Source: a virus. From it: a stretch of 64,000 nucleotides of DNA. Below, piece after piece: positions 15,801 to 38,132 of this stretch. The translations under genes and the position numbers were made by a program. The DNA lies in IMG/VR virus record IMGVR_UViG_3300006752_000025, positions 1 to 64,000 of that record. One strand, given 5' to 3'. Numbering within the stretch: the first letter of the stretch is position 1; every line of letters begins with the position of its first letter. Under the pieces are notes generated by a model that ran no database searches, was not told the origin of the DNA, and saw only the letters and a program-made list of their open reading frames with translations.

Positions 15801-18800
15801 ATGGAAATGGTTCTCAACTTCCTGGACACTGGAAAGGCTTTTACTTATATTATTACGACACCATAAAGCCTCATACACATCCATGGGAAATGCTAGGCTT
15901 TACAGAAAAGCCACTTTGGTGGGACACTGAGTATGCTTTATATGCACCCACTGATGTTAATAAAGTAAGTCCAATAATTGATTATACACCTACAAATACA
16001 AAACTGTGGGACGACTTAGAGAATGGTATAATTAGAAAAGGACCTAGAGCAAACCTTTACAACAACTTGTATAAAAATAATAATCCTTTTAGAAGAATAG
16101 GATTACATGAAGTACTACCAGTTAATTCTAGTGGAGAATTAATTGCACCAGCAGATATTGTATCTACTGAAACAACATCATTGGCCCAAACATGGAATAA
16201 TGAATTTGTTAATGTAATAACAGATATACAAGCAACATCATTTAATAGAATTGATGGACTGTCGGTGTCTGTAGATAATAGCAATTTGTATGTTAAAAGT
16301 AATACAATACCTAATCACAGTATTGATGGCTTACACTATGAGCATTCAGGACATGCTACACTTGACGGTGATACAGTAGAGTTCAACGAAGTAACATACA
16401 ATATTCCAAAACGAGATCTTCAACAGATTTCAGCAATAGGAAATACAGACAAGCAAGGCTCCGGACCTGTTGCTGTTGCTATTAACGGTATTCCTGTTTA
16501 CAATATACATTCTAAAGAATCTTGGAACAACGAAGATGAGTGGCACTACTCAACTGTTACAAAAGAACACAATGACGACGAAACAGAACATGCGAGTGCT
16601 GATGATGGTATATTACATTATCATGTGTTCAGTCCACGTGTAGTAGGATTAAGCGAGTGGAGTACCACAGAGCACTCACCAATAGTAGGTTGGGCACTCG
16701 ACGGCTTACCAATTTATGGACCATATGGATATGCAGATCCTGATGACTCCACAAGTGCTATAACAAGAATTCAATCACCATGGAATGTAAGATCTGGTTC
16801 AAGACTAACAGGACCAGGCGGAGCATACACTGGCCAATTTGTAGAGGATTGGGAACCAACTGGCAGTGGTGATACTTATACAAATAGTTACAATGTGAGA
16901 TATGCAAAAACACCAGATTCTCCAGATACTAAAATTAGATTTTATGTTGCCACAGTAGATGAAAACAACAAGCCTACTTTCCCATACCATGTTGGTGGCG
17001 GAAGTGGTGCAGGAACATCAGGTAACAATGTATACCAAAACAATTTTTATTCTAATGCACATGACACTGGATTAATAAAAGAAATCAACATTGTAAACAA
17101 AGGTGGACAATACACTAATGCTACAGTTGCTATAACAGGCGATGGTACTGGTGCAACTGCAACGGCAACTATTGTTGATGGTAGTATACAAGCAATTACT
17201 ATTACAAATCCAGGTTCTAATTATACAAAGGCACAGGCAACAATACAAGGTGACGGTTACAGAGCTATATTAACTGTTGTTCTCGACACTGCTGACAATA
17301 ATAGAAACAGCGGCTATTTTGATACTGATGCTCCAGAATATATTAGAAGCACAAAAGATATCAGTGTAACCACAAATGATGGTGTCGACAGCCGATGGGC
17401 ATTCGGTGATTGCAGTCCTACAGAATATGCATGGAGAAGTACTGAAGAATTTCCATTTGCAATGTCCGAAGCTCTATTGTTAGCAAGACCAGGTTTGTTT
17501 GCAACATTTTTTAGTAACCCTGTTGTACTACATAGACCTAGTTGTAATAATCAATATCTTCTAAATAAGGACACAGGAGAAACTTGGAAGTTTTATGATA
17601 CTGCAGAATTTTTAATACACGGCGAACTAGATCAAAATAAAAAATTCACCACAGCAATTGGTTATAGTCAGTTTATATACACTTGGTTACAATTCCAAAA
17701 CCTAAATATCAGTGATGACTTTGCAGTTAAGATGCGTACACTCAATACTAACTTAGCACAAAGAATGAGTGGCTTTGTTGACAAAGACACAATGGTTGCA
17801 AGAACAGACCAATATAGTAATGATGGAAATGCAACAAGTCTTATTATACCACAAGAAAACATAAATGTCAACCTGCATAGCAGTAACTATAAAACAAGAA
17901 GTTTCTACAGTGGTGTTGTAATTGAGAAAAGTGCAACCGGATACATAATTAGAGGCTTTGACAAGAACAGAGGTTACTTCAATGTTTTACCTATTGATCC
18001 AAAGAGTCCAAAATCTAGTATATCAGTAGGCGGAGAGCCAGCACCGCATGTACAGTGGGAACCTGGCAAAAGTTATGCCAAAGGAACTATTGTAGAAAAC
18101 AATAGAAATTATTATAGAGCAAAATTAAATGTAACATCAGGTTCTACATTTGAATTAAAGTATTGGAATAGTTTAAGTAAGTTACCACAACAAAACGGTG
18201 CAGAAGCGGCATTGTACAGTGTTCGTAAGACTATACCAACTAGAGTATATTATGATACAGAATATACTTTGGTACAAGAAGTATTTGATTTCCTAGTAGG
18301 ATTGGGTGCATACAATAATCAAGAAGGTTTTGACTTTGGCGAATTTGATGGTGCAATAAACGATGTTAACGATTGGATGTATGCAGGTAAGCAATTCTTA
18401 TTCTGGACTACAGGTAAATGGGAAATTGGTAACACTATTGAGTTATCACCACTAGCAAGACGTTTACGTTTTACTGCGCCACGTGGTTTTATTGCAAAGA
18501 TTAATAGAACAGACAGAGATCAGTTTGCACTAATGGATCAAGCAGGTGCTGTTATTGATCCTACAAAATGTCAAATCAACAGAGAAAATTCTGAGATAGA
18601 AATCATACCTCCTGTAGGACAACAAATTTATGGTTGCATGTTATTCACAAAAGAAATAGAACATGCTTTAGTATTTGATAATAACACAGTGTTTGCTGAT
18701 GTTATATTTGACGATGTACATGATCAAAGACACAAGAGGATAAAACTTAAAGCAAACAGAACAAGAAATTGGACTGGTAAATTCTTCTCAGAAGGATTTA

Positions 18801-24800: not shown

Positions 24801-27800
24801 ATACTAAATTGAGACCTGAACATATTTTTGTTGCATGTTTTTGGACAGAATCATTTACATACGTGCAACAGATAACAGGTTATAATTATGATCAACTTGA
24901 TGCCGATGGCGCACCAGCACCAATATACAGTGACTACGATGGAACAGTTGTACGTGTTAAGTATATTAGACTTACAGAATTACCGCCAAATGCAATTACA
25001 AGAAGATTAATACCAGATACTGGTTGGGCAGGCAAAGGCTGGAACAATGTTACAGTTGATTATGCTATCCAACAAAACAATGGTGATCAAACAGATATTG
25101 ATTCTTACATAGATCAATTTGACCCTGTAGAAACTGGCAGTGGTAGCACAGGCGGTGATGATACATTAGTTGTAGATTTGCCAGCATTAACTAGAAGTGC
25201 AACACCTATACCAGTTGAGGGAAGTTCACAAAATTACAGTTTAAGTAATACTAGATTATTGAGCAGTGGTGAACTAGAACAACAACTTGGATTCCAAAGT
25301 GTGCCTACTGGAGAAGGTGGTGCTCCTGTGAATACTTTAGCAAAACTTACACAAGCACCTGGACCATGTTTGTCTATTACAACACCTGACGATCCTACTC
25401 CTCCTGGAACAACTGCACCTGGAAGTTGTACTGATAAAGAAACAATGATGTTGTACGAATCTATAAGTGATAATATTGAATCAGGATGTAATCCTGGTAG
25501 TGTACCAAGTAGCGATAAGACTCAGAGCGAAAAGAGCAGTATTACTGATTTGTTAATACAAGATGCTTCAAGTTGCGTATTCTTCGACGGGGCTCGTTAT
25601 CAAAATGGTGATGGAAAACTCAACATGTTCTTTGGTAAATCAGTTAAAATTGCCACATCAGGAACAGTAGATCTATTTATAAATTCTCATATTGAGAATA
25701 ATGCTAACAAAGACAAACCATTTGGTAATGCTACTGGATATGTTGTTTGGCAAAGTGATCAACCATTGTGGGACGGCAATGCCAACAAAGCATTTAGTTC
25801 AAGAACGTTTTTAATTGACTGGTTAAATAGACCCGAAACTAGATTACTCAAGAGCACAATGAACAACTCAAATGATATTCCGACAAGAAGCGGAGATCAG
25901 ATATCTAGATACGGAGTTGACTCTAATTTATCAGAAGGTAATACAAGATATACACAAGTTGATGGAGTATTTGATACTGACGATCGCGGACTTGCAATTT
26001 ATCCTGGTGGTAATAAAGAAACTAAACTATATAATGATTTAACATTTACAAGATTAATTGAAGACTTAGATAATAATAATATCTCAGTTAAATGGGCCGA
26101 TTGGCACAGCGACATAGGTACAGCAATGCTGGGCAAAGGCTTTAATCCAAACAATCAATTTGGCATGCAAGGTATTGGTTATATTAGAGCATCAAACGTT
26201 GATTGTAATAAAGGATTATACATAACTGTTATGATGGTTCCTTCATTTACGTCAACAAATGGTAACTCATTAACCGATATAAATCATCCATCAAATTATG
26301 ATAGACTCAGTGATGCGTATAATTATTTTGAAGAAGTTGATGATACTGGTAACGGTCCGTCTACAGTTAGAAACCAAGCAGTTATAAGATTTTTAGGTGA
26401 GAAACCTGATGATTATGTACCGCCTGGCCCAACATGTGATGATACAAATAGACCTAGTAGAGCATATAGAAATGGTGCTGTATTAAAAGGATGGCGAGCA
26501 ACTAGAAGTAACAATAACTCTGCACAAGATGGCAGATCCGGTGAAGATTGGCGGGGCAATAAACGTGAAGTTGATAATGTATATTGGCCGTACCATTCTC
26601 TAGGCAGTATTACTCCTAATTACTTCAAAGGTTTTAATAATAATAACATTTGGGGACCATGGCGTTCACGTACAGCAGGTTCAACTCCAATACTTACTAC
26701 CAATATTAGAAGTTTCCACAAATATAATTCAGGTAGAGGTGAGCATTCATACGAGGCTAAAGGTTATATGTTTGCACCATACACTGGTGTTTACTACTTT
26801 AGTGGTTGGGGAGATGACCAATTAATTGTTTGGTTATCAAGTGGTCCTGCAGAATCAGACTTAGATATATGGAATGCATATCCTACATCATATTACGGAG
26901 CCGGTGCTTATAAAAGTCATGCACGTATAGGTGTTCCTGATGATGGTAGTGGTCCTTCTGGTGAGGCGGCAGGTACGTACGAAGAATGGTTCACAGATGA
27001 TGGATTTGATGCTGATAATCCTAGAAACTATATTAGTACACCAAATGTAGAACATAATGGAACATGGTCTGACAGAGATGGTAGTAGTACGGTTAATAAT
27101 AGTACTTCAGGTCCGCCACCTAATTGGTTAATGAAAACAGGTTGGACTACCTCAAACGAAAAGAAAGCATCATGGTGGAACCAGTGGCAAAAACATAAAA
27201 AAGCAGTTTACCTAGAAGCAAATAAATTCTACTTTACTAGATTAATGTTTAGTAACAGGGGCGGTCCTGGACACTATGGACTTATGTGGACATGTGATAG
27301 AGCCAACGGGGGCATCATAACAGGAATACCAACATTTGGAGGCTTTAGTTGTGAAGATGATGGACCACCAACAGATGGTGGCGGCGGTGGCACACCTGGA
27401 GGCGGTGGCGGTGGCGGCTGTTTCACAGGTAATATGAAGATTTGTATGGCTGATGGCACACAAAAAGAAATCAAAGATGTTGCAGTAGGTGAAAAAGTCA
27501 AATCACTAGATACCGATACAAATGAAATTGTAGAAGTAGCAGTTAGTGGATTAATGACACCAAGAACATGTAACATATACGAATTAACATTAGACAACGG
27601 AACTGTTATAGAAACAACAGCAGACCATCCATTTAGAACTGTTGATGGTAATTGGGCTAACATAGATCCAAACTTTGTACAACCAGGTGCAGGATATATT
27701 ACTCAATCAGGCGATGCTGTACAAGCAGAAAAATTAGAAGTTGATACAATATTACACGGTATAGAAGTTAATGCTACAGTGACAAATATTGTAGACACTG

Positions 27801-27928
27801 GAAGAACAGAAACTGTTTATCACTTGTATGATGTAGGTGAACATCATAACTATTTTGTTGAAAATATATGTGTACACAATATGAGTTCACAAGATGGTAC
27901 ATCACAAGAAGCGGTAGTGAAGAAATAA
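12845..27928 (+). CDS. Giant baseplate-associated structural protein (5027 aa) with YHYH, GSGY-repeat, PA14-like and Hint domains
   Basis: It occupies the place of T4 gp7 and shares motifs I recall from giant virion proteins of cyanophages and pelagiphages (SDRYSTYLPPINADKFINYQ, about 108-127; HPWEMLGFTEKPLWWDTEY, about 1012). Domains: YHYH domain at about 1250-1390 (LHYHVFSPRVVG, PIVGWALDGLPIYGPYGY); GSGY-type beta repeats at about 1415-1480, 2175 and 2840-3060; a PA14/GLEYA-like beta-sandwich at about 4540-4820 (YTGVYYFSGWGDDQLIVWL, LEANKFYFTRLMFSNRGGPG), a fold often binding carbohydrate; a Gly-rich linker; Hint domain C4859-N5012; then a 15-residue tail beginning at M5013. T4 gp7 is about 1032 aa, so this is roughly five times longer. 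No signal peptide. The role as wedge periphery or host-contacting arm is inferred from position and the PA14-like domain. Confidence 0.75.
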   Translation: MSDKIYKKLPVVHQTNAIKNFFDNTVEQLFSKANVELVKGFIGNQRGVDHDVEGAYIVQPTASKRFYSLSPTINTKTVDTNKPENLIFYDEFIDLLKSYGVQTKNHNKLFSDRYSTYLPPINADKFINYQEYYWVPEGPSVITVSGTASNYIDINLDILGKKSYALPDGMPMRNGMIVTFAGDYVIPASQTSKNFIVSGVGDSITLTEFTANNPVSYRLDTSVAWEKDYILQERGAKNKNAWSRVNHWYHIENFRDAGDVIPEKTKRANRPIIEFDKELELYEHGNSLLYSVEISAADFSYSDINGIDAGQFIDNVGIEGAYIIFPNESLEVSKYIYYASVNSGAIRLSRVASPNSPTGVPDGKDNFIPLEPTNGDVVLVKSGSKYLGSEYYWTGRGWEQTQHKSRVNQEPLFNLYDNKGQYIGDNDVYPQNSFTGNKIFGYAVDLSSQESNLSVSTVNDKELGFPLVYKQFKSSSEILFQNFQKTSNYNYIPFGGTSSKSINGYKFYKLDKQVVEYHAYWKHVQQPHVQKIIATYNLAQPVVDRQIKDFYIGAVPKTNPKFNSGYEIEITLNGNPLTGFQYFPSNKGFIRLDNVTYKANDILEISVNSDEGLIDDQNIPKYDLPLSWKNNVLKQDIISISEPEYMEHFSDYISNQKEFDGLKFGSNNSDSIVKEDMFANRITNADQNTILGAFLLDDQPHNLIDAMRFNRSEYTKFKNRIKNEINKYYDTKDTDGISTGDLLEQIIRIAQTYKVGRDVFNRTYILPYGDNYREEEFVVGIPTSTADRTFTSLYDADLDKLENSLLVYHNQKLLTVEHDYVISSFSPITITILDNVPLSSADIILFKLYDAERDSAQCPPTPSTMGLYPLFQPEITTDNSFSTPLDIIIGHDGSKTPTKGDLRDDLLLEFEKRIYNSAKAEFRTNNSMPEHSVFSSQNGAFRKETLEYKEFNDLMVSSYATWLLRNNLNGTANEFYSENDKFTWNYGNGSQLPGHWKGFYLYYYDTIKPHTHPWEMLGFTEKPLWWDTEYALYAPTDVNKVSPIIDYTPTNTKLWDDLENGIIRKGPRANLYNNLYKNNNPFRRIGLHEVLPVNSSGELIAPADIVSTETTSLAQTWNNEFVNVITDIQATSFNRIDGLSVSVDNSNLYVKSNTIPNHSIDGLHYEHSGHATLDGDTVEFNEVTYNIPKRDLQQISAIGNTDKQGSGPVAVAINGIPVYNIHSKESWNNEDEWHYSTVTKEHNDDETEHASADDGILHYHVFSPRVVGLSEWSTTEHSPIVGWALDGLPIYGPYGYADPDDSTSAITRIQSPWNVRSGSRLTGPGGAYTGQFVEDWEPTGSGDTYTNSYNVRYAKTPDSPDTKIRFYVATVDENNKPTFPYHVGGGSGAGTSGNNVYQNNFYSNAHDTGLIKEINIVNKGGQYTNATVAITGDGTGATATATIVDGSIQAITITNPGSNYTKAQATIQGDGYRAILTVVLDTADNNRNSGYFDTDAPEYIRSTKDISVTTNDGVDSRWAFGDCSPTEYAWRSTEEFPFAMSEALLLARPGLFATFFSNPVVLHRPSCNNQYLLNKDTGETWKFYDTAEFLIHGELDQNKKFTTAIGYSQFIYTWLQFQNLNISDDFAVKMRTLNTNLAQRMSGFVDKDTMVARTDQYSNDGNATSLIIPQENINVNLHSSNYKTRSFYSGVVIEKSATGYIIRGFDKNRGYFNVLPIDPKSPKSSISVGGEPAPHVQWEPGKSYAKGTIVENNRNYYRAKLNVTSGSTFELKYWNSLSKLPQQNGAEAALYSVRKTIPTRVYYDTEYTLVQEVFDFLVGLGAYNNQEGFDFGEFDGAINDVNDWMYAGKQFLFWTTGKWEIGNTIELSPLARRLRFTAPRGFIAKINRTDRDQFALMDQAGAVIDPTKCQINRENSEIEIIPPVGQQIYGCMLFTKEIEHALVFDNNTVFADVIFDDVHDQRHKRIKLKANRTRNWTGKFFSEGFIIDGDELRPNLDNMAESLGRYHELGFVPVEKQLYEQSRALFGYQEKSYLTELDVLDEQQFEFYQGMIQNKGTKESLTRLANSNSIVQGNITVFDEWALRVGDFGNTKNKQNIELKLYKSDFKQSSQLIKLDYPQSTTNCIERIDVFEARYQYEKLPVIEISMPSDPKGKQATAVVRLDNNNKLERIVVTDGGSGYNNPESLAARVVASNVLINEVETVLDKALVIGNTYITDTTSMRLELTDHVTDTTVALNVTNSNGSANVTGANIATAINSNALLNVNITASSISNYTDTDDDANITTLIAKDLITLSGSDFTVVDGANIGITNARYQPQQKFSLVGALANTDSNYETNANDIVVEVDDVNVPRVDEFNALDVYWTFDKGSNFQITTSADYPSLDINTIADANNNAFALLNNSVTLAFPGSNNIASSNLIKGSNSQYKYVEVYINNVQIFNSPSTYTSDGEVVSDGNVFTLTTSGITFNDISLLPNTVLTPDINPPIDTDANGQQRDTYYTLKEGSTIQITERPTLQFTDKFVGDLPESTVRIKVTAKEGIAPRVGIKRTYDVVPSTSKDIVVFDIDDSTRFLKKPEGTKISKLWPTTANVDLLGMTDSNYPKISNAGYVNSANVNFLAFDVQSLSDLYRDDFIFKPKQNDYIHVAKSENEDWNVYELMPAGDDVLSESASTKVNYLERSTSGNVSLFTNYSLLSYIDSNQIGENNTGKYLDFVLSLQNANVNDNIVLWNNEKIIREATSKVKGFEAPRQIEARIQSIGPLNAFNIASTEPAISQVYSGLRARVLPTSDGNTLQLTGSVGTIGNGDAVQIIDNVGTTVQRDTVVATVSSGNVSLNPTSIANLTITSAGSGYNEPPTVTVSPDLGANITAGIEGNVSTVNIVTDNNFQTANVTLGGGGGTGATVRTEIFDAELVGFTVTDGGSGYLYDSSGNPTQAVTVTVSGSGTAEVRDFDVDPSTGEILNINVTNGGSGYDSGSLPSVTISGSGGSGATAVPIIQGNVRAIVTNIGSGYTQPPAVIIHGDGTGFSGEAVLNAKVTSLTVNNGGVGYTSTPTISISGSATATPNMDFGNAEIDQNIIDDGTFLKTKVVITGSINVDTIFGLPSEANTSTINKINSLFQNDHTVIGYSQNSTSALLHINEPLLEDADVVSNINNLAFQIKSYKDYSPSTGRYFVVSNVTQRSFTITRPNSVDGNGVSVRHLNDTKLVTGDSLIPINGGDIVRVNANNFEGMFRVKSSENGNITIPSPFTFDFQSGTVSTEGIKIKTVSDHGISPLYAEYGKRIAVHFANPKTYNQIYKIDKVTPTELYINNRWAKTSKTQVYYDHKIGTINGSVPYEAGNINADYANSTNTVGLTRSTDLTETLVKYTSNSQIVNPRFVSVVEDGTVCAIHPDALPADTTISVDVDIQRDIGRDILYPQLSTIDQGVVTLKGSQQHLTSYNNPQALENDLNRTIKLKQSFTDPSSMTTVNPKTGLPAMQLKIPMLRSPWLPVVGDTPAPLIHDYGPYVLSTEALNNIEQNYVTGSMVLGSDDESRIDPAFYKGAKQSGPIYGLRYTKEDINYVWDNEIQQYVPEFTIIKNGEIVNSLGDQSVPPMPEFHVPQSVLNNSPVTVREDFVLKQIPGSANSNRPWRPVRKQQTYNMLDNKTFTAGSDEITIPAYRLRAIKNENVFLIYQAVQNTDNHVYYAKVDESNPPNLDHDFNATINRYADFGQYDTTDYYWRNEILPSIDSDNKISDPKDPIRLRKTKNIINLSAVEPAAYVGPQLIPEPFALAGGNNSDRVANFTALPIGTQAKPSTFLDYAPGEPGGVLPGGAEGEELYVPQTGFGRFLLWTPGLAPGQWAPTSGGPGAIDTESLGYGSGYYQVDDDHDVLDYPDVSGLTYDKPIARFKYSRRFNILPTVYNSNRRIYEINGTRYTEDELVALTPDTRSRDGDSNQAFWDGIFEDINGIDKEIDYNFFFDEEWWDYLEIEELVLDNIATEGNNDVDNTKLRPEHIFVACFWTESFTYVQQITGYNYDQLDADGAPAPIYSDYDGTVVRVKYIRLTELPPNAITRRLIPDTGWAGKGWNNVTVDYAIQQNNGDQTDIDSYIDQFDPVETGSGSTGGDDTLVVDLPALTRSATPIPVEGSSQNYSLSNTRLLSSGELEQQLGFQSVPTGEGGAPVNTLAKLTQAPGPCLSITTPDDPTPPGTTAPGSCTDKETMMLYESISDNIESGCNPGSVPSSDKTQSEKSSITDLLIQDASSCVFFDGARYQNGDGKLNMFFGKSVKIATSGTVDLFINSHIENNANKDKPFGNATGYVVWQSDQPLWDGNANKAFSSRTFLIDWLNRPETRLLKSTMNNSNDIPTRSGDQISRYGVDSNLSEGNTRYTQVDGVFDTDDRGLAIYPGGNKETKLYNDLTFTRLIEDLDNNNISVKWADWHSDIGTAMLGKGFNPNNQFGMQGIGYIRASNVDCNKGLYITVMMVPSFTSTNGNSLTDINHPSNYDRLSDAYNYFEEVDDTGNGPSTVRNQAVIRFLGEKPDDYVPPGPTCDDTNRPSRAYRNGAVLKGWRATRSNNNSAQDGRSGEDWRGNKREVDNVYWPYHSLGSITPNYFKGFNNNNIWGPWRSRTAGSTPILTTNIRSFHKYNSGRGEHSYEAKGYMFAPYTGVYYFSGWGDDQLIVWLSSGPAESDLDIWNAYPTSYYGAGAYKSHARIGVPDDGSGPSGEAAGTYEEWFTDDGFDADNPRNYISTPNVEHNGTWSDRDGSSTVNNSTSGPPPNWLMKTGWTTSNEKKASWWNQWQKHKKAVYLEANKFYFTRLMFSNRGGPGHYGLMWTCDRANGGIITGIPTFGGFSCEDDGPPTDGGGGGTPGGGGGGGCFTGNMKICMADGTQKEIKDVAVGEKVKSLDTDTNEIVEVAVSGLMTPRTCNIYELTLDNGTVIETTADHPFRTVDGNWANIDPNFVQPGAGYITQSGDAVQAEKLEVDTILHGIEVNATVTNIVDTGRTETVYHLYDVGEHHNYFVENICVHNMSSQDGTSQEAVVKK
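21366..22020 (+). repeat. GSGY beta-repeat region inside the 5027-aa protein
   Basis: At protein level, about five imperfect units of 35-50 residues each end near a G-S-G-Y motif: SAGSGYNEPPTVTV, DGGSGYLYDSSG, NGGSGYDSGSLPSVTI, NIGSGYTQPPAVII, NGGVGYTSTPTISI. Intervening segments are Gly/Ala/Val/Thr-rich. Single units recur near 17100, 17215 and 19370, and in the 3385-aa protein near 31065-31340. The pattern fits an elongated beta-solenoid. Confidence 0.7.
27419..27880 (+). other. Hint (intein-like) domain coding segment
   Basis: The encoded segment starts with Cys4859 right after a poly-Gly linker (CFTGNMKICMADGTQKEIKD, intein block A). The block B histidine is in ETTADHPF (His4928). It ends with the F/G blocks (VYHLYDVGEHHNYFVENICV, then His5011-Asn5012). 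All residues for N-S acyl shift and Asn cyclisation are present. The next residue is Met5013, not Cys/Ser/Thr, so ordinary splicing by transesterification is unlikely. Cleavage as in bacterial-intein-like domains is the more likely activity. Confidence 0.85.
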
Positions 27929-27974: not shown

Positions 27975-30900
27975 TTGGCTGTTGAAAATTATACCACAAC
28001 TGATTCTATAGAGATAGATTCGCAAGTTGGAAATCTCAATCCGTACTCATGGCCAGGCTTTGAGTTGCTGTTTCATGACTGGCAAAAATTAAATGGTTCA
28101 GATCTTAACACTGGAAGATCATTAACTAATTTTACTAGTGACCTCAGAGAATTAGAAGAATTATGGGGTGTATGGAATTCAGGTAATTTTGCCACAGCAC
28201 AAGAATTAGCAGACCCAACAGGTTATCGAAAAAGTTTATTTGAATGGACATTAACATATACAAATCCTTCTCAAAATCCGTGGACTGAAATACCAGCACA
28301 AAACTTTTTTAATAATTTCAGAAGTGTAGGTTTCGATTTTCCTACAACTAGAACAATCAACCCAATTCCTATTTTCAACGAAGATAGAACTTATGTAAGT
28401 CAAAGCAATAGCAGAGAAGCATGGTATAAAAACTTTATTAAGTATTCTCGTCTTAAAGATATGGGTTCACTTAATTTTAGACAAGCAGTATTTAGAGGCT
28501 ATCATAATAATAACAACACTGATTATTTGCAGTCAACATTCAAGCCTGCAAATTTCTTTGAAACAATATTTAATCGTGATGTTAAAGTACAATTACTTGA
28601 TCGTTGGGCTGACACCATACTAAATGCTGATCCATATACTCAGATGCCTGGTATGCCAGCAGGTATATCACAAAGAGATTATGCATTTTATGAATTACAG
28701 TTAGCAAGAATTCTCACAGGTTCGTTTTTTAATACTAGTGTGTTTAATGATATGTCTTTAGCAAGAGCTGAATACATTAGCCCAGCATGGATTTATGAAA
28801 ATGTAGAAGTAGGAAATCCTGCATACATTCCAGGTGCTCAAAATGCATTTGGTTCTATAGGCGGCAAAATTCAGGCAGGAGTTGGACTGTCACCTATTAT
28901 ACCATGGACTAGCGAGTACTGGAAACAAAATGGTGACTTATGGCGTTACATGAGAGCCGAATACATTAAAATTTGGCATGAGTCCGCTCAACACAAAGCA
29001 TTTGCATATTGGCACTATAAATTAAATGGCAAGGATTGGAATAAAGCAATTTCTAAAACACCAATGCTTAAGAATTCTGGGCAACCTGGTGTTGGACATT
29101 ATGGCTTAATTTATAATGCTAAAGGTATTGAGTACAATTTTGTTAATAGATTTACAAATTGGAAAACATACAGAGGTGTAAGTGAAAGTGATTTTGAAAC
29201 ATTAGAAGGACCACCTACTGACTACGAAAGAATATATGCTGACTTTACAGATAGTGAGAACTTTGACGGGTCTTGGACAACTGTTGGAAGTAACTATATT
29301 AATACAGGAAGTTCTTCTGCAGAGTCCGCACCGGCCACAAGAATATATACAAAGTTAACTACTGAGATACCAGATACAACTGTGTTGCCATACGAACCAG
29401 AAGTATCCATTACTGGCAGTAAATTAGGACTGTCATGTCTTGGTACACCACTTGGTTCAATGTATGTTGGAGCAAGTGATGCCGAAGGTAGAAAGCCAGT
29501 AACATGCTCTGAGGCATTAGCACATTGTCTAACACTAAATGCATATTGGGGAGGTGAGTCTCAACAAGATGCTATTAATAGATGTGTAGAATTACAAAAA
29601 GGTAACGACACTCCTTTAACAAATTACAATTACAAGAAAGGTGTTGTAGACGACAACGCAAGTATAAAAGAAAAATATTTTGCGGCATTCAACCCAGAAC
29701 AGTTAGGAAGTGTAAAAGCAGGAAACAATAGTCCTTTCTATGCTAAACCTTACAGCGGTAACAAATTTATACCGTCAACTGCTAAGGCACCAAAAAGAAT
29801 CAAGTTATCAGAATTACAAGAGGTTGGATTTAGTCAAGAGTTATCAACTGATCGATATGTTAATCAAACCACGCAAAGAGTAAGTGGTGGTTTTGTAATA
29901 CCACTTGCTAAAAAATTAACAACGATTGCTAGAGAATCTACTCCTCTACAATCATATGATGCAAATGAAGAACCGTGGGCAAAAAATTTACAGAATTTAT
30001 TGAACCTCAATAAAACAAGTAGAACTATAAGTTATCAGCCAGTTAAAGTAGGTTCACAATACTATGTAAACGGACAACCGGTTAGTAATATAACGTCAGG
30101 TACTCCTAAAACAGAAGATAGTATCACAGTACCATTTGATGATACACCTACAATACCAACTACATCACAACCAGCATCACCATCACCAGGCTTCAGTGCT
30201 ACACAAGAAGAAGATGTTTTTATTCCAGAACCACTGGAATATGCTGAGCCGTTTGATGATATAAAATACAACAATGTTCAGATGTTAGACATAACTCCGT
30301 TGGAGTTTGGCCCAGGTGGATTTTTAGAGCCGGCAGGCCCTCCAGCAAGAGTTGAGTTTAGAGCACCAGTACCTAGTGTAACTATACCCCAAGGAGACTT
30401 AACAGGTTTAAGCAGAGGTTCTGAGTTATTACTAAACGGACGTAAAGTTATTTTTAGAGGCAATGGTGTAATAGATATTGCAACACAGGTTAATTGTTTA
30501 CGATCAGGTATAAGAGCTGAAGTATCAGTAGGCTCAGATGGCGGCGAAGAAATAGTGCTATCAAGTTGTGACGGAATGCCATTTAATATTGCAAACGGTT
30601 GTGGATCCGGCAAATACAAACAGGTTGGTGACTTCCATATTAACAGAGGTTTTGAACAAAGAGCAGATAATCATAAAACTATTGCTAAAACTGCAAATGC
30701 TACAATTTTTAGTGCTAACGATGTTATTGGTGGAACATATCCTGTAACAAAAGGAACACAATCAAGTACAAAACCATATCCGCAATCATATCTCAAAACA
30801 GAGTTAATTGATCAAGGTAGAAGTCCATTTTTATCATTGAGACACACACCTGATGAATTAGACGACCCGGAAAATGCAACAATTGATGAACTTCTAAAAG

Positions 30901-33900
30901 CAAAGTATTATGACTTTGACCCAGATCCAAATTTAGAAAGATTTGTTGAATACGTACCTAAAGAAGAAGAACTACGTGCAATGGGATTCAAGAAAGGTGA
31001 AGCACCTAATGTTTGGTTACCACAAGTTACAGAAACAGAATCTAATGTATCAGTTTACAGCACAGGTGGTAGTGGTTATGCAATTGGAGATCGTTTAAGA
31101 CTAGTAGGTGGCACACCAGTTCAAGATCCTCGTGGTCCATTAACAATGATTTGTATAGATAGTGCAGGTGCAGGTTATACAGATCCTAACTATATACAAA
31201 TTGTTATTGATTCTAGTGGAAACAATGGTGAAGGCTCAGGCATAGGCGCCGCGGCAGTTGTGAGAACATTGGATGAAAATGGCGGCATAGCATCAATTGA
31301 ATTATTAAACGGTGGCTTTGGATATGATTATAATAGTCCACCAGAAGTTACAGTAATTGACTATTCACCAAAAGTTGCAGTTAGCGAAACAATCAATGAT
31401 GCATGGACACCTCAATTGACAGTGGTTCCTAATACACTTTACAAGGTTACTAGAGAAGTTCAGGAATTTGATGTAAATGGTAACGCAACAGGAACAACAG
31501 AAATTTTTGATAAGTTTGTTCGCTCCGTCCGCCCTGCCACTATTGGTGAATCGCATACAATCCCAATCGTATCGCTGAATAGAAATCCTGATGGTTCTTT
31601 AACAGATAATCGTGAAGACCGAGGCTACGGCAATGCTGATGTAGGCTTAGGAGGCATGACTTCCTTACAAGGAGTTTATTGGGTAGATCCAGACGTTGAG
31701 CCACATGTAAGACAAGCAGAAAGAGCCAGAATTGTACTCAATAATAATGGTTTAATGAATGGCCTTGATATAGGCGAAGCACTAAGAACACAATCATATG
31801 TTGAAATAGGCCACTATCCGATCAGCGACGACGTTACAAAAATATTAGATGCAAACGTAACATACGCAAATGTATTTGGTAACTCAGGAAATGCAAATGA
31901 CACGCATCATTCGTTGGTACTTAATAATGTAGATGGTATTGAAGTTGGTGATCTAGTTGTTAACACCACATACGATGCTGACGAAGATCGTGGAGATATT
32001 GATCTTGCTAACACAACTAGATGGCATGGATATGTAACCAGTGTAGATGAAAACACCGATACAGTTGTGATAGAATTAGAATCTAATCATTGGCGTAAAC
32101 AAGCATACGACTCTACATTTACTTACAGTGATCCAGGCGATAACTCTCTTGATTATAAAGCAGGTGATACCATTACGTTTGGCCACAAAAGATATACATT
32201 ATTTTGGGTTCCAAAGTCACTGCAAATAGAATCTTTGGAAACACCACCAACTATTGGCGCCTCAGAAATGATTCCAGGTAACACATACACTATTAAAAAT
32301 AGAGGTTTTGTGGATTGGCGCGATTATGGGTGCAACGAAGAAAAGCCACCTGTAGGAACTACGTTTGTAATGACAGGTGACGCCAGTGCTGAAACATCTG
32401 GTGCTGTTTATGACGACAATTACATGGTTGATAGTGTAATCAGAAAAGAGAACGATCAATATGGCGCATTTAATTTCTCACCGTATTTCTTTGAAATACA
32501 ACATCAAACTTTTGTAAGTGGTGAGGCTGTTAATGCTGTATTTCCAAGGCATACAAGAATTAGTATAGAAGCCAGAAGCACATGGATAACTGACTACAAC
32601 ACACCTCCTGAATATGAACAGGGTGTTGATTGGTGGACAGAGACAGTAAACCCAAACATGCAAAAAGTTCCAGCAAAATTGTCTGCTCTTATCGGAATTG
32701 ACCCTGCCAGTTTAGGTGTAGACAGAACAGGACTTGCAGATTTACTATCTCCTAATGCAGAGATGTCAGCAGATTCAAAAGGCATGGAAGGCCCATTACG
32801 TGTAGCAAAATTTATTGTTAACGGAATAGATGACAGTGGTGGAATTACATCTCTAAAATGTATAGACCGCGGCTTATATGAAATTTTCCCAAGTGATTTA
32901 ACATATGGTATTCCGTTAGAATACGATTATGAACCAATTGGCTTCAGTGGACAAATAACAAAAACAGAGCCTTTCTTAGAAAACTTTTTTAGTTCTAAAG
33001 CCAAGGTATTAGGTATAGGCGACCCTAGTAGAAACAATATTTTTTATAGTGACATTGAAGATTCCTATAATATTATTCAAGGTTTTAGTGCCACAATAGA
33101 TAACGAAATTGTAGAAGCAGGTGGTAAAACTGGTGTTGACGTACACCCTGAATATGCTGAAGGAACAGTGTTTAATGAAACTGGAACCTTGCCAGAATAC
33201 GGCACTAATTTCAAACACCCAGATTGGATAAAATATCCTGAATTCATATACACAGGCTTTCCTCGAGATCCAAATGGTACTACAGAAGACAAATTAAAAT
33301 GGGTAAAGTATAATGGTAGTCCAGGTGCATATGATCCAAGTGTGTTTGTATTAGTTGATTACGAACCTCTATTGACATCATGGCCAACGCCTCCCACAGA
33401 TGCTAAACAATGGGAAACCTTTGCTGAACAAGCATACAATTTAGGTTTACTATTGCGAAAAGAATATGCAATTGAATTTGATCCTAATGCTACCATAATA
33501 GATGAAGATGGCAATGAAGTAAACAATTACGGAAAATACATGAAACCTAAAGTGGTACCTGGTGGTACTGGTGCAAGGGTATTCTTAACAAGTCAAAATG
33601 TACCAAACTGTAATGAAAAAGGCACTATCAAAGAACAATTGAATTTACCAGATGTAGTACAAGAAATAAATGCTCCTGCTGACATAGCACGTAGAATGAG
33701 AGATGCATTCAGCGGCGTAGGATATGACCCAGACGATCTCAATGCAACTATTGATGATGGAAGAGATATTGTACCATTAACAATTAAAACATCGTATCCA
33801 GGAATAAGAGTGCAATCCCCAACCGGTGATCCACAGGGTCCGGTAGAGATACCATTGGGCGACTATAATGTAGCATCTTACTGTATAGAAGGAACAATTG

Positions 33901-36900
33901 ATGTAGGTGGCTTATCACAAAATGCCGCTACTGATTTATACAAAAGAAAAGTACAAGAATTAATTGATTCTGGCCAACTAGGAGTACTAGAAGCAGATCA
34001 AATACGTGCATTAGTAGGTCCGGATCGAAATGTATCAGATGATGCTGTAGTGATGACTATGCTTTGTGTCGATACTGTGGGTAGGCCACCACAACCAACA
34101 ACAAATGGAAATGATCAAGCAGGTAATCCAATTAACTTTGAACGTTTTCCTTTGAATGATAACAACAGTCTATTCGGTGATGGTGATGCTGAAAGTTGGA
34201 TGGAAGTTTATGAATACGATTTACAAACTCTGCAAGGAGGCAATGTATTCTTGACAGGTTCATCAAACCAAGTTACGCCAGTGATGGTATTTGAAAGCAA
34301 AAGATTTAACGACAATAATATACTTGCTATCGGGGAAGAAGTAGATAGTCAAAACATTTATGTGCAAGAACCTAAGGCATGGGTTGACAATTTTGTTTCA
34401 ACAGAAGCAAATATTTCATTAGATGCTATGCCAGGATTCATACAAGGTGGTTGGGCATATTTAGAATATGGTGTTCCTATTAGATGGCAAACTGAATTAG
34501 TAGATGTAGACTATATTCAAAATTCTATTATATATGATCCTGAAACTGGTAACAAAGAATTTGATCTTAATTTGTGGGATCCATTCAAAGGTGTATTACC
34601 AGGATTTATGGACAATGAGATACATTATATCACTGACATTGATCCAGTTAATTATAATTCTGCAAGAACATTATTTGGCAAGGATCAAGTAGGAAAAGTT
34701 TGGTGGGATACCAGCACAGTAAAATATACATGGTATGAGCAAGGCCCATTAGAAGAAAGAGCAAAAAATTGGGGTAGAGCATTTCCTGGTAGTTCCATAA
34801 CTGTTTGTGAATGGGTAGAAAGTAAATCACTTCCACAGAATTGGACAGGTGATGGAACTCCTAGATGGACAAATCAATATGTAACAGAACGTAGATTAGA
34901 TACAAACGGCGAATACAAGCAGATGTATTACTACTGGGTAATGAATAGAACTAAAGTAGATAATCGTTCAAAACGTGATCTAGGAAGAAAAGTAGACACA
35001 AGAACGTTGGCTAGATATATTGCTAATCCAATCGGCTACGGTATTAAATTACTTACAGCAATATCCAATGACACATTAGTTTTATCTAACGTTGATAAAG
35101 ACATAGACCAAGAAGTAAATCTACAAGTTAATATTAACAACTCTAAAAATAATGAAGGCATAAATCATACTGCTTGGAAACTACTTAGAGAAAATGACGA
35201 CAGTAACAAAATACCTGATTTCCTAATTGAAAAATTAATAGACAGTATTTGTGGACAAGATATTTTGGGTAACATGGTACCTGCGAACAACCTCAGTGAA
35301 ATTGAAAAGTACGGTATTGCTGTAAGACCTAGACAAACAATGTTTTGTGATATCAAAGAAGCAAGAAGATTATTGGTATCTAAACTAAATGAAATATTAG
35401 CAGATACAAAACTTAATACAGAATATAAAAACTGGAACATTGGACTAAGTACAAATCTTAATTATGTTAACACTGTAAACTATTACGAAACTATTCGTGT
35501 AGATGAACAAACTAATCAAAAAATTCGTTATAACGATTCATACAAGCCAACTTACAAAGTTGCTAGTATCGAAGAAATGGATAGATTAACAGATTTGCCT
35601 GATGCAACTGTAGTTCAAGTACAATACAAAAACAGCAGAGAATCTAAACTATTTTTATATAACGCACCATTAACACAATTTGATTTAGTGTCTATAAAAG
35701 ATGAAACTATTGAGTTTAGTGATAGAGTTTATATCGATGAACCTAATACAGGACTTGCATTAGAACTAAGAGAAGTCTTAACTGCGTTAATTAATAATGT
35801 GTTTGCAACAAACGGAAGAATAAATGAAATCTTCTTTGAACTAATGAAGTTTGCGTATTTAGAGCAAGGCGAATTAAGTTGGGCGTTCAAGACAAGTTAT
35901 GTATATATCGAAAAAGAAGAATCAGATCTAATTAAGTTCAATGGATTCAAACCTGATAACTTTGAAAAAGTTCTTAGTTATATGGAAGAAGTCAAACCAT
36001 TTAGTTCTAAGATAAGAGAATACAAAGACGGTAAGAAAACACCTATAGATATTATAGGACAAAATGCATTAACTGATTTTGACAAGCCGCCTTATGTAGA
36101 TCCAATAACAAATTCAATCAGAATACTAGATGACTTTGACAGAGAAGACTCTGAAATAATGAGACAACATAAACGATATGTTGACTATTATAAACAAAGA
36201 CTAGAGGATATGTCAACCAATCCGTTGAGAAAAGTTAAATCTACATTGGTGTTTGATAGAACAAACTGGAGGTTAACAACATCAGAATGGGACAAATCAA
36301 ATGTAACATTGTCTGACAGCATAGGTCAAAATATTGCAAACTTGAATTTGTTAAGCAACGCAAACATAACTGCTAGAACAAGTACATTGGTTCCTGCTAA
36401 TGCAACAATACGTGCAACAGATAGAATATTCAAGTACGATCAAGAAGTTCAGAATATGTTTGCATCAGAAGTAAATGCTTACTTCAATACTGCAAATGCC
36501 TCAGCAAATCTTAACATTATAGGCAATGCAGAATTAATGTCTAATATGGTTGAAGCAAATAGACTTAATGGAACATTTGCATTAATCAAAGACAAAGTAG
36601 GTGGTAACTTCAGAGGTGAGGAATTAGACGGCTATAACTTTACAACTATACCTGATGACATTTATTATACAACTGAAAAAATTACTGAGTTTGGTTATTC
36701 ATCATTACCTTATGATGACAACACCGATAAAGATACCAGTATTATAATTGATAATGAATACGGAACAACCACAGTAGGTACAGGTGATTTGACCTGGGAT
36801 AGGATTGTAGAATTACAAGAATACGAGGGTGTGTTCAAGGGTAATGCAACAATTAGACGTGATGGAAATATTAAAGAAGGCTTTGATGGCATTACATTCC

Positions 36901-38132
36901 AACGTGTAGGGTACGGTGAAGAAAGACCAGAGGAATTGGCATTGCTCGATCCTTTAGAAAGTTTAATCATGACAGTTACAACATCTGCACATGCAAATGG
37001 TAGTATACAAAGTTCTAATGTAACAGTGAACTCATTCTCAGCAACAGAAAGTAGCATGACACTTGATTCAGATATATTAGTACAAAAAGGTTCAAAAGTC
37101 ACAGTGACAAATGTTGACAATGGTAACAGCAATATAAAATACACATTAAATGCAGTAGTGTCGCAAGTAGCAGATGCAAGTATTCAATTAGAAGGCGCAT
37201 TCAATGATGTAAACTTTGCAAACTCGATATCAAATGTAAAAATAGTAACAGTACCTGTTAGTCCAAGTGCAAAAGAGGTAGTTTACAGAGTACACAATAA
37301 TTTACTTGGCGGAACTGATTATGTTCGTATTAGAGATAAGACCAGTACTTATCTTACATCAAATATTGAAATTAATAGTAGACAAATTAAACTTAACGAT
37401 GGTTCGTTCTTGCCTCAACCTACTTCCACAACACCAGGTATGGTTTGGGTAGGCTCCGAAAGAATACATTATGGAAGAAAAGTTGGCAATACACTAAGCA
37501 TGTTAACCAGAGGCGTATTTGGAACAAGTATAGAAACGCACACAGTTAACACACCAGTGTACAGTTCTCAGACATTAGATCACTTTAATGATCTCAATCC
37601 TGAATCAAATATTTGGCTTGACTTAGGCATAATTTATGATGAAATACGTGCTAAGTATGATGAAATACAAGCAGGATTAGATGGAGTGTTAGGCACAGGT
37701 GATGATATCTATGATGCTTGGGACGCAATTGAAGCAGGAAATATTACAACAACAGTTGTAGATGCAGTAGTTAATAGTGCAAACAGTACAGTTGCAAATG
37801 TTACACTACAATCTAGCATGACATTATCAGTTGGTGAAGCAGTAAGATTAACAAATCAAAGCAATGCAAATGTATACGAAGTTGTAAGCATTACAGCAAT
37901 TAATGGTAATGATATTGAAATAGAAGCAAGTTATACTGATACATTAGATACAAACTTGTTTGTAGTAAACGCAACAATAGACTTCAAATCATTTGACTAC
38001 GGCGACCAAGCAGTAGATCAATTATGGGATGCCGCAGAAGTTATTAGTAATGTGTCATTAAGTTTAGCAGACAGAGCAAATGTAGACTTTAATAATCAAT
38101 ACAGTATTATGAAGTTCTTACATAACTTATAA
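27975..38132 (+). CDS. Giant baseplate-associated structural protein (3385 aa)
   Basis: It begins at TTG 27975, supported by GAGG 7 nt upstream and a late promoter just before; no ATG fits. No enzyme motif is seen. The N-terminal 400 residues are Trp/Tyr-rich (SWPGFELLFHDWQKL, KTYRGVSESDFETLEGPPTD). Residues about 485-540 hold a cysteine cluster (CLGTPLGSMYVG, TCSEALAHCLTLNAYWGGES, RCVELQ). GSGY units lie at about 1030-1120. Residues about 2238-2460 (VGKVWWDTSTVKYTWYEQGP, RAFPGSSITVCEWVES, KYGIAVRPRQTMF) strongly resemble a segment I recall from cyanophage giant structural proteins. The C-terminal quarter is beta-rich with repeated short N-A-T/S-N-x-T strands. It may stand in for part of gp7/gp8 by position; that is inference. 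Confidence 0.72.
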   Translation: MAVENYTTTDSIEIDSQVGNLNPYSWPGFELLFHDWQKLNGSDLNTGRSLTNFTSDLRELEELWGVWNSGNFATAQELADPTGYRKSLFEWTLTYTNPSQNPWTEIPAQNFFNNFRSVGFDFPTTRTINPIPIFNEDRTYVSQSNSREAWYKNFIKYSRLKDMGSLNFRQAVFRGYHNNNNTDYLQSTFKPANFFETIFNRDVKVQLLDRWADTILNADPYTQMPGMPAGISQRDYAFYELQLARILTGSFFNTSVFNDMSLARAEYISPAWIYENVEVGNPAYIPGAQNAFGSIGGKIQAGVGLSPIIPWTSEYWKQNGDLWRYMRAEYIKIWHESAQHKAFAYWHYKLNGKDWNKAISKTPMLKNSGQPGVGHYGLIYNAKGIEYNFVNRFTNWKTYRGVSESDFETLEGPPTDYERIYADFTDSENFDGSWTTVGSNYINTGSSSAESAPATRIYTKLTTEIPDTTVLPYEPEVSITGSKLGLSCLGTPLGSMYVGASDAEGRKPVTCSEALAHCLTLNAYWGGESQQDAINRCVELQKGNDTPLTNYNYKKGVVDDNASIKEKYFAAFNPEQLGSVKAGNNSPFYAKPYSGNKFIPSTAKAPKRIKLSELQEVGFSQELSTDRYVNQTTQRVSGGFVIPLAKKLTTIARESTPLQSYDANEEPWAKNLQNLLNLNKTSRTISYQPVKVGSQYYVNGQPVSNITSGTPKTEDSITVPFDDTPTIPTTSQPASPSPGFSATQEEDVFIPEPLEYAEPFDDIKYNNVQMLDITPLEFGPGGFLEPAGPPARVEFRAPVPSVTIPQGDLTGLSRGSELLLNGRKVIFRGNGVIDIATQVNCLRSGIRAEVSVGSDGGEEIVLSSCDGMPFNIANGCGSGKYKQVGDFHINRGFEQRADNHKTIAKTANATIFSANDVIGGTYPVTKGTQSSTKPYPQSYLKTELIDQGRSPFLSLRHTPDELDDPENATIDELLKAKYYDFDPDPNLERFVEYVPKEEELRAMGFKKGEAPNVWLPQVTETESNVSVYSTGGSGYAIGDRLRLVGGTPVQDPRGPLTMICIDSAGAGYTDPNYIQIVIDSSGNNGEGSGIGAAAVVRTLDENGGIASIELLNGGFGYDYNSPPEVTVIDYSPKVAVSETINDAWTPQLTVVPNTLYKVTREVQEFDVNGNATGTTEIFDKFVRSVRPATIGESHTIPIVSLNRNPDGSLTDNREDRGYGNADVGLGGMTSLQGVYWVDPDVEPHVRQAERARIVLNNNGLMNGLDIGEALRTQSYVEIGHYPISDDVTKILDANVTYANVFGNSGNANDTHHSLVLNNVDGIEVGDLVVNTTYDADEDRGDIDLANTTRWHGYVTSVDENTDTVVIELESNHWRKQAYDSTFTYSDPGDNSLDYKAGDTITFGHKRYTLFWVPKSLQIESLETPPTIGASEMIPGNTYTIKNRGFVDWRDYGCNEEKPPVGTTFVMTGDASAETSGAVYDDNYMVDSVIRKENDQYGAFNFSPYFFEIQHQTFVSGEAVNAVFPRHTRISIEARSTWITDYNTPPEYEQGVDWWTETVNPNMQKVPAKLSALIGIDPASLGVDRTGLADLLSPNAEMSADSKGMEGPLRVAKFIVNGIDDSGGITSLKCIDRGLYEIFPSDLTYGIPLEYDYEPIGFSGQITKTEPFLENFFSSKAKVLGIGDPSRNNIFYSDIEDSYNIIQGFSATIDNEIVEAGGKTGVDVHPEYAEGTVFNETGTLPEYGTNFKHPDWIKYPEFIYTGFPRDPNGTTEDKLKWVKYNGSPGAYDPSVFVLVDYEPLLTSWPTPPTDAKQWETFAEQAYNLGLLLRKEYAIEFDPNATIIDEDGNEVNNYGKYMKPKVVPGGTGARVFLTSQNVPNCNEKGTIKEQLNLPDVVQEINAPADIARRMRDAFSGVGYDPDDLNATIDDGRDIVPLTIKTSYPGIRVQSPTGDPQGPVEIPLGDYNVASYCIEGTIDVGGLSQNAATDLYKRKVQELIDSGQLGVLEADQIRALVGPDRNVSDDAVVMTMLCVDTVGRPPQPTTNGNDQAGNPINFERFPLNDNNSLFGDGDAESWMEVYEYDLQTLQGGNVFLTGSSNQVTPVMVFESKRFNDNNILAIGEEVDSQNIYVQEPKAWVDNFVSTEANISLDAMPGFIQGGWAYLEYGVPIRWQTELVDVDYIQNSIIYDPETGNKEFDLNLWDPFKGVLPGFMDNEIHYITDIDPVNYNSARTLFGKDQVGKVWWDTSTVKYTWYEQGPLEERAKNWGRAFPGSSITVCEWVESKSLPQNWTGDGTPRWTNQYVTERRLDTNGEYKQMYYYWVMNRTKVDNRSKRDLGRKVDTRTLARYIANPIGYGIKLLTAISNDTLVLSNVDKDIDQEVNLQVNINNSKNNEGINHTAWKLLRENDDSNKIPDFLIEKLIDSICGQDILGNMVPANNLSEIEKYGIAVRPRQTMFCDIKEARRLLVSKLNEILADTKLNTEYKNWNIGLSTNLNYVNTVNYYETIRVDEQTNQKIRYNDSYKPTYKVASIEEMDRLTDLPDATVVQVQYKNSRESKLFLYNAPLTQFDLVSIKDETIEFSDRVYIDEPNTGLALELREVLTALINNVFATNGRINEIFFELMKFAYLEQGELSWAFKTSYVYIEKEESDLIKFNGFKPDNFEKVLSYMEEVKPFSSKIREYKDGKKTPIDIIGQNALTDFDKPPYVDPITNSIRILDDFDREDSEIMRQHKRYVDYYKQRLEDMSTNPLRKVKSTLVFDRTNWRLTTSEWDKSNVTLSDSIGQNIANLNLLSNANITARTSTLVPANATIRATDRIFKYDQEVQNMFASEVNAYFNTANASANLNIIGNAELMSNMVEANRLNGTFALIKDKVGGNFRGEELDGYNFTTIPDDIYYTTEKITEFGYSSLPYDDNTDKDTSIIIDNEYGTTTVGTGDLTWDRIVELQEYEGVFKGNATIRRDGNIKEGFDGITFQRVGYGEERPEELALLDPLESLIMTVTTSAHANGSIQSSNVTVNSFSATESSMTLDSDILVQKGSKVTVTNVDNGNSNIKYTLNAVVSQVADASIQLEGAFNDVNFANSISNVKIVTVPVSPSAKEVVYRVHNNLLGGTDYVRIRDKTSTYLTSNIEINSRQIKLNDGSFLPQPTSTTPGMVWVGSERIHYGRKVGNTLSMLTRGVFGTSIETHTVNTPVYSSQTLDHFNDLNPESNIWLDLGIIYDEIRAKYDEIQAGLDGVLGTGDDIYDAWDAIEAGNITTTVVDAVVNSANSTVANVTLQSSMTLSVGEAVRLTNQSNANVYEVVSITAINGNDIEIEASYTDTLDTNLFVVNATIDFKSFDYGDQAVDQLWDAAEVISNVSLSLADRANVDFNNQYSIMKFLHNL

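Follow-up and report, generated by a model that had tools for sequence, protein, structure and literature searches.

A candidate self-detaching intein-like Hint domain at the C-terminus of a predicted giant phage baseplate protein, and lysine-bearing tails of C-terminal phage Hint domains

Bacterial intein-like (BIL) domains, for which Dassa and co-workers reportedly proposed aminolysis in 2004, usually have C-flanks longer than the short tail described here. A-type BIL domains are described, in excerpts of two publications, as having kept the C-terminal His-Asn (HN) without a +1 nucleophile and as being mainly cleaving (PMC7765530, PMC7664689), and BIL domains occur in hypervariable bacterial proteins according to the same kind of excerpt (PMC7765530). 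The Tetrahymena domain BIL2 (BUBL1) is reported to join an upstream ubiquitin-like domain to a lysine by an isopeptide bond in an ATP-free reaction (PMC8616854, excerpt), Hedgehog proteins use an N-terminal thioester step (PMC7664689, excerpt), and HINT is treated as a toxin-releasing peptidase in an excerpt on polymorphic toxins (PMC3482391). For phages, partial texts place a Hint in the large terminase of the Rak2-like phages Rak2 and K64-1, with CBB lacking one (PMC5259590), assign the inteins of phiCbK to TerL and the ribonucleotide reductase (PMC3556154), and mention inteins in the terminases of the PaBG group including Alexandra, Y3 and AD1 (PMC7412058). The available part of a jumbo-phage review mentions inteins a single time (PMC13282480), and the main text of the D. 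solani AD1 paper, in the portion available, contains nothing on inteins or mass spectrometry (PMC6143709). Neither Hint self-removal from phage fibres nor lysine tails are described in the titles and abstract beginnings of the open-licence PMC papers listed in our searches, and a published function of the fibre Hint of the Alexandra/Y3/AD1 type was not found in the literature searched.

The window analysed here covers bases 1-64000 of a virus record with 68,954 bases and encodes a giant protein ending in a Hint domain (Table 1). The neighbours of the giant gene and the N-terminus of the giant itself have PHROG matches, the gp25 and gp6-like neighbours being recognised by Pfam as well. Residues ~4-510 are homologous to PA5oct gp355, and the PA5oct annotation shows the same gene order gp5, gp25, gp6, giant. 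Gene order and gp355 homology identify the giant as a predicted baseplate-wedge type protein of a Rak2/PA5oct-like phage, and as the gp355 record bears the note 'ESI-MS/MS' we infer that it is a virion protein. Matches to the first ~510 residues were obtained in 57 phage records, PA5oct gp355 included, and the 15 of these records that were listed have genomes of 284-490 kb. PA5oct gp355 is without a Hint (profile E = 0.84). Residues 3720-4851 gave zero matches among 50,697 phage records, a Hint-less homologue of the C-terminal part of the giant not being found in this search; its close relatives comprise a near-identical contig and a second contig at ~70% (L003; L-numbers denote comparison loci or contigs). 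Upstream of the Hint, the last 776 residues of the giant have Pfam matches to GLEYA (35.7 bits, cut-off 26.2) and PA14 (16.6 bits, under the cut-off of 24) and to nothing ubiquitin-like. An AlphaFold2 model of the PA14-like region from two sequences reached a pLDDT of 25.7, the domain being known from Pfam only.

Table 1. Features of the giant open reading frame and its C-terminal Hint domain, in window coordinates
Feature	Position	Strand	Evidence or context
Giant ORF, 5027 aa	12845..27928	+	baseplate wedge region, after gp53-, gp5-, gp25- and gp6-like genes
YHYH domain within the giant (PF14240, E 1.1e-26)	16442-16963
GLEYA/PA14-like region, residues 4519-4844	26399..27376	+	Pfam; 76% identity to L003
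Gly-rich linker G5-T-P-G7, residues 4845-4858	27377..27418	+	Gly run before Cys1 also in L003
Hint domain, 154 aa, Cys4859 to Asn5012	27419..27880	+	profiles, model, fold matches, dN/dS
Cys4859, block A nucleophile	27419..27421	+	codon TGT
Block B T4925-A-D-H4928	27617..27628	+	alignment of 42 Hints
Block F His5001	27845..27847	+	His in 33/42 aligned Hints
Block G His5011-Asn5012	27875..27880	+	HN in 42/42 aligned Hints, but HN required for inclusion
15-residue tail MSSQDGTSQEAVVKK, with Lys5026 and Lys5027	27881..27925	+	3' of the Hint; stop 27926-27928

The Hint matches the Pfam profile Intein_splicing (PF14890; E = 1.3e-10; 41.7 bits, cut-off 35.8) over the whole 155 profile positions and the NCBIfam profile intein_Nterm (TIGR01445; 32.2 bits, cut-off 24.5). 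It is the sole Hint match in the 68,954-base record and, with a wider profile too, the sole one in the window. Its AlphaFold2 model, computed with an alignment of 42 Hints, has a pLDDT of 87.5 and a pTM of 0.84, with model residues 168-176 at the end of the tail being disordered (pLDDT <50). The 154 residues are fully accounted for by the Hint model, a homing endonuclease being absent. The alignment contains diverse Hints for which only Cys1 and HN were demanded; Cys1 is present in 42/42, but was required for inclusion, and the block B His, likewise in 42/42, and the block B Thr (39/42, with Ser in 3/42) were not. The codons of His5011-Asn5012-Met5013 read CAC AAT ATG (27875-27883), and 15 residues follow Asn5012, Met5013 being the +1 residue. 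The original prediction, made from the sequence alone, of an intein-like Hint at this C-terminus thereby stands above chance by profiles, model and fold matches, all of the residues it named being present (Cys4859, the block B His4928, His5011-Asn5012, Met5013 and the 15-residue tail); its likeness to BIL domains is borne out by profiles and fold matches, and its label 'PA14-like' is fair for an upstream domain with GLEYA over and PA14 below the cut-off.

The best solved fold match is BIL2 (Foldseek E = 4.5e-12; VIA-align Z 22.9 over 146 residues, 1.5 A), other matches being the Ssp DnaB mini-intein (Z 21.4), a Clostridium BIL (Z 20.3) and Hedgehog (Z 18.2). The 1.5 Z units by which the modelled domain scores higher with BIL2 than with the DnaB intein would indicate a preference without demonstrating a closer relationship. 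The window Hint reads as an A-type BIL domain. As in this class, the Hint fold comprises blocks A, B, F and G, including Cys1 and TxxH, ends in HN, is endonuclease-free and has a variable +1 residue without a conserved nucleophile, though L003 has a nucleophilic Ser; it also belongs to a variable region of a protein without a housekeeping role, being absent from the homologue PA5oct gp355. It differs from A-type BIL domains in its place at the very end of a predicted phage baseplate protein, with poly-Gly before it and a short Lys-bearing tail behind. B-type BIL domains have a C-terminal motif other than HN, whereas HN is present here. Canonical inteins of phage terminases and helicases share fold and motifs, but interrupt conserved enzymes, and their +1 Cys/Ser/Thr is replaced by Met5013 in the window (Ser in L003). 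Hedgehog Hog domains are alike in fold and C-terminal position, but the window Hint ends in HN and 15 residues leave no room for the sterol-recognition region that follows the Hint in Hog. BIL2 is the best match in sequence as well as fold, and its crystallised construct (6Y75, 6TMM) has H-A(N143A)-M at the position of HN-Met in the window, i.e. a Met after the terminal Asn position; in contrast to BIL2, the window lacks the flanking ubiquitin-like domains of the BUBL type, the identity is 22-23%, and the window domain is known here from sequence and model. Collagen-like fibres of the Alexandra/Y3/AD1 type resemble the window in having a C-terminal Hint followed by a 10-12 residue tail with Lys, but their upstream protein is unrelated; their Hints were not retrieved with the window Hint by tblastn at E = 1e-3.

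Comparison of the window with L003 shows 109/154 identical Hint residues and a dN/dS of 0.28, exceeding the values of the PA14-like region (0.135) and of the following gene (0.09; first 500 codons), so that the constraint on the Hint is moderate. The tail has 3/12 aligned residues identical and a dN/dS of 0.70 (12 codons only). Given this low identity, we rejected the idea that the tail is a functional peptide conserved in the window lineage. An internal start at Met5013 was rejected as well, since L003 does not share the codon. HN is kept in L003, in L006 and in L147, a prophage endopeptidase-tail protein bearing a Hint; the +1 residue is Met in the window, Ser in L003, Ile in L006 and Glu in L147. 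The L006 Hint, 54% identical to that of the window, is preceded by poly-Gly in an unrelated protein of 319 aa and has a 6-residue tail, its gene lying near RIIB-, cytidyltransferase- and NAMPT-like genes. Its presence on an unrelated protein suggests the Hint being a mobile C-terminal module.

Three layouts of Hints with poly-Gly before Cys1 were found in IMG/VR loci. Layout A has an N-terminal Hint between two Gly-rich tracts of gpJ-like tail-tip proteins (L050, L034, L080 and similar loci); L050, the single protein of this layout tested, matched PF24801 and PF13550, and none of 30 phage records matched by the gpJ-type Hint in tblastn carries a gpJ annotation. HN is present in 54/54 non-identical layout A loci, the +1 residue being Ala in 52 loci and Ser in another, with one locus cut by the contig end, this set being seeded by a DNA pattern for Gly-Gly-Gly-Cys-Phe-Thr-Gly with families not collapsed. 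Layout B, comprising the window, consists of C-terminal Hints with short tails, and layout C of HN-less Hints on proteins that appear baseplate-like by eye (L056, L094, L109, L118, L204, L216). HN is lost in a Hint following a Gly-rich stretch in L056, L094, L118 and L216. At L183 (5022-6287) three tandem Hints end one protein, with a Lys after each of them.

A second family is provided by cultured Erwinia/Dickeya jumbo phages, in which the collagen-like fibre protein, i.e. Erwinia phage Alexandra gp112 and relatives, has a C-terminal Hint. The fibre part matched 60 records and its Hint 55, one of the latter being a different protein of an uncultured phage. The presence of the fibre Hint is known at the annotation level, as some records, e.g. 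Y3 gp110, read 'contains intein domain'. All 11 aligned fibres of this type share Cys1, the block B His, HN and one tail Lys, the +1 residue being Thr in 9, Val in 1 and Met in 1. Dickeya JA29 gp099 ends in ...ARNPK just before the Hint position and the fibres of contigs L405-L407 in ...RIKV where homologues enter the Hint, the tail being absent from all of these; neighbouring fibre genes have the same order. Judging from these alignments, Hint and tail are present or absent as a unit, and because the Hint-less homologues stop exactly before the Hint, the two together look like a removable appendage. Phage NCTB has two Hint-ended proteins, BN7874_132 (1305 aa, with poly-Gly, Hint and the tail APVDQKH) and one with the tail AVMVAKK. 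A stand-alone Hint-like protein of this phage (L409 3934-4395) adjoins a full-Hint fibre, lacks Cys1 and ends in HN-KVD; it could act in trans. The fibre proteins of a 'Salmonella' phage (L265, 108 kb) and an 'Alcaligenes' phage (L410, 78 kb) are alike by eye, and one of these records may be mislabelled.

The tails of C-terminal Hints have 1-19 residues and are mostly unconserved, six families having a single Lys before the stop. To count independent tails, 72 C-terminal Hints were reduced to 27 at 70% identity and then to 21 by removing L218 (block G unclear) and L345 (terminase-type), both with Lys, and merging five Alexandra-type rows into one, the window representing L003; families under the 70% cut may still share descent. 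Lys is present in 21/21 of these tails, a post hoc observation that includes an earlier count of 10/10, the expectation being 6.4 with 1173 length-matched C-termini as controls and 7.1 with 95 from the same loci. Such a count was reached in 0 of 20,000 random draws. The nine tails without Lys at +1 all have one elsewhere (product of chances 3.7e-4; 1.5e-3 with same-locus controls), and Arg is found in 2/21 tails compared with 6.1 and 4.3 expected from the two control sets, respectively. The prediction of Lys was fixed before the analysis of a new scan, which yielded eight C-terminal Hints, two of them, both with Lys, being left out at an identity of at least 70% to earlier ones. Five of the six new families carry Lys (2.3 expected, P = 0.019), the exception being L501 with a doubtful block G, and Arg occurs in 3/6 (2.3 expected), so that its depletion was not repeated. 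Lys is the +1 residue in 29/55 and 43/62 Hints with block G obtained with two other seeds, families not being collapsed; 51/106 and 40/102 seed matches were without a recognisable block G. At the level of sequence, Lys-bearing Hint tails in phages are new and unexplained, and the tail may take part in the reaction.

With moderate confidence we propose a model according to which the Hint is catalytically competent and A-type BIL-like and serves a baseplate adhesin as a C-terminal appendage that detaches itself, as suggested by the full catalytic residue set and the predicted fold, which are kept while +1 residue and tail vary. Cys4859 would attack the carbonyl of Gly4858, the final linker Gly and predicted thioester carbonyl, assisted by Thr4925/His4928, resulting in a thioester. 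Cyclisation of Asn5012, assisted by His5011, would release the tail, and as a constant +1 nucleophile is absent, the thioester would be resolved by water or an amine, whereupon the Hint would leave and the mature adhesin would terminate with the poly-Gly linker or immediately behind it. We infer Hint activity in the infected cell, this order of steps and Hint-free mature virions, the Hint-less comparison being drawn from another fibre family and not from the giant itself. Self-removal alone has no obvious use, and the model is therefore missing a purpose. In L003, the Ser at +1 could allow ordinary splicing. The original prediction took the Met at +1 as an argument against splicing, which the Ser of L003 and the Met of the BIL2 construct leave unsettled; for the same reasons, BIL2 being reported to ligate to Lys, we rejected the +1 Met as proof against ligation. 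Its view that the tail from Met5013 can be cut off holds in that this is a plausible cleavable end. Loss of the tail is unlikely as the main point, given the short, mostly unconserved tails reduced to one Lys in six families, and detachment of the Hint at Gly4858/Cys4859 is likelier. The prediction also suggested that cleavage may mature the tip of a host-contacting arm or attach it to another molecule through the thioester. Removal would agree with the Hint-less homologues of the other fibre family, which stop right where the Hint would begin, and attachment to another molecule is taken up below with the lysines.

A cut of the C-terminal bond only, shedding the 15 residues and leaving the Hint on the virion, was the main reading of the earlier prediction and appears improbable to us. 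The kept HN and the non-conserved tail agree with it, as does the ability of A-type BIL domains to cut at Asn (PMC7765530, excerpt), but the N-terminal step depends on Cys1 and the block B His, which are just as invariant, and one-residue tails make tail release an unlikely purpose. More room has to be given to a role of the lysines, which we put forward tentatively and with considerable doubt. Phage 'lysine-tail' Hint cassettes would pass the Gly of a fibre or adhesin from Cys1 to a Lys without ATP, the acceptor belonging to the Hint's own tail, a neighbouring subunit or a receptor. For the giant, attack of an amine on the Cys4859 thioester would link the tail or its Lys to the adhesin's final Gly by a peptide or isopeptide bond and thereby cap it, an outcome we regard as rather unlikely. 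A lysine-linked product is nevertheless a live option because BIL2, the best fold match, is reported to make a Lys isopeptide (PMC8616854, excerpt), and the Lys in all 21 collapsed tails, the six single-Lys tails, the five of six new families behaving as predicted and the frequent +1 Lys with both other seeds argue in its favour. Against this, the pattern was seen after the fact, L501 lacks Lys, and the lysines of the window are at +14/+15, far in sequence from the active site; a plain charge effect may account for it as well, since the low Arg of the first set did not recur in the prospective one.

That the domain is a selfish mini-intein, living as a parasite of poly-Gly coding tracts and tolerated close to the ends of genes, we consider very improbable: the absence of an endonuclease in the 154-aa domain and of a +1 nucleophile in the window speak against it, and in the collagen-like fibre family the tail is not an ancestral C-extein, since the Hint-less homologues lack the tail too. 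It would account for related Hints after poly-Gly in unrelated proteins and for gpJ-type proteins with an N-terminal Hint between two Gly-rich tracts. It is hardly credible that a folded, inactive domain has been kept as a structural cap, as the whole set of catalytic residues is intact and conserved across 54-70% identity, even if HN has been lost in some other virion Hints (L056, L094, L118, L216).

BIL domains are without a clear role in the literature searched, and phage virions offer a testable one, with the cultured phages Alexandra, Y3 and AD1 showing the same layout beside natural Hint-less relatives (JA29). If the lysine-tail reading were true, phage virions would use a conjugation chemistry like that of ubiquitin, and splicing in the absence of a +1 Cys/Ser/Thr would have a second solution. 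With Lys as the acceptor, these domains would be new and compact tools for protein ligation, and phages would have a new means of building or attaching their fibres.

Several observations concern the surroundings of the giant gene. The next ORF (27975-38132; 3385 aa, TTG start) has zero Pfam matches, its first 500 residues having relatives only in two contigs that also bear the Hint giant. The motif GATAAATA is perhaps a late promoter of this phage: it occurs on the plus strand at 868, 7983, 27949, 45972, 49247, 57623 and 38157 and on the minus strand at 57593-57586, one copy lying between the Hint-ended giant and the next gene. Seven of the eight copies lie a few to ~40 bases 5' of an ORF start, the eighth overlapping a listed start, and the total of 8 compared with 5.2 expected in the window is not above chance; TATAAATA is not enriched, with 3 found compared with 9.2 expected. 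A fibre-like protein (38871-41249) has a C-terminal Peptidase_S74 chaperone domain, so that, together with the Hint, two kinds of probably self-cleaving C-termini would be present in one tail module. Downstream of the tail-fibre region, three consecutive genes (59034-62937) all match phrog_14086 (radical SAM), forming a tandem enzyme set.
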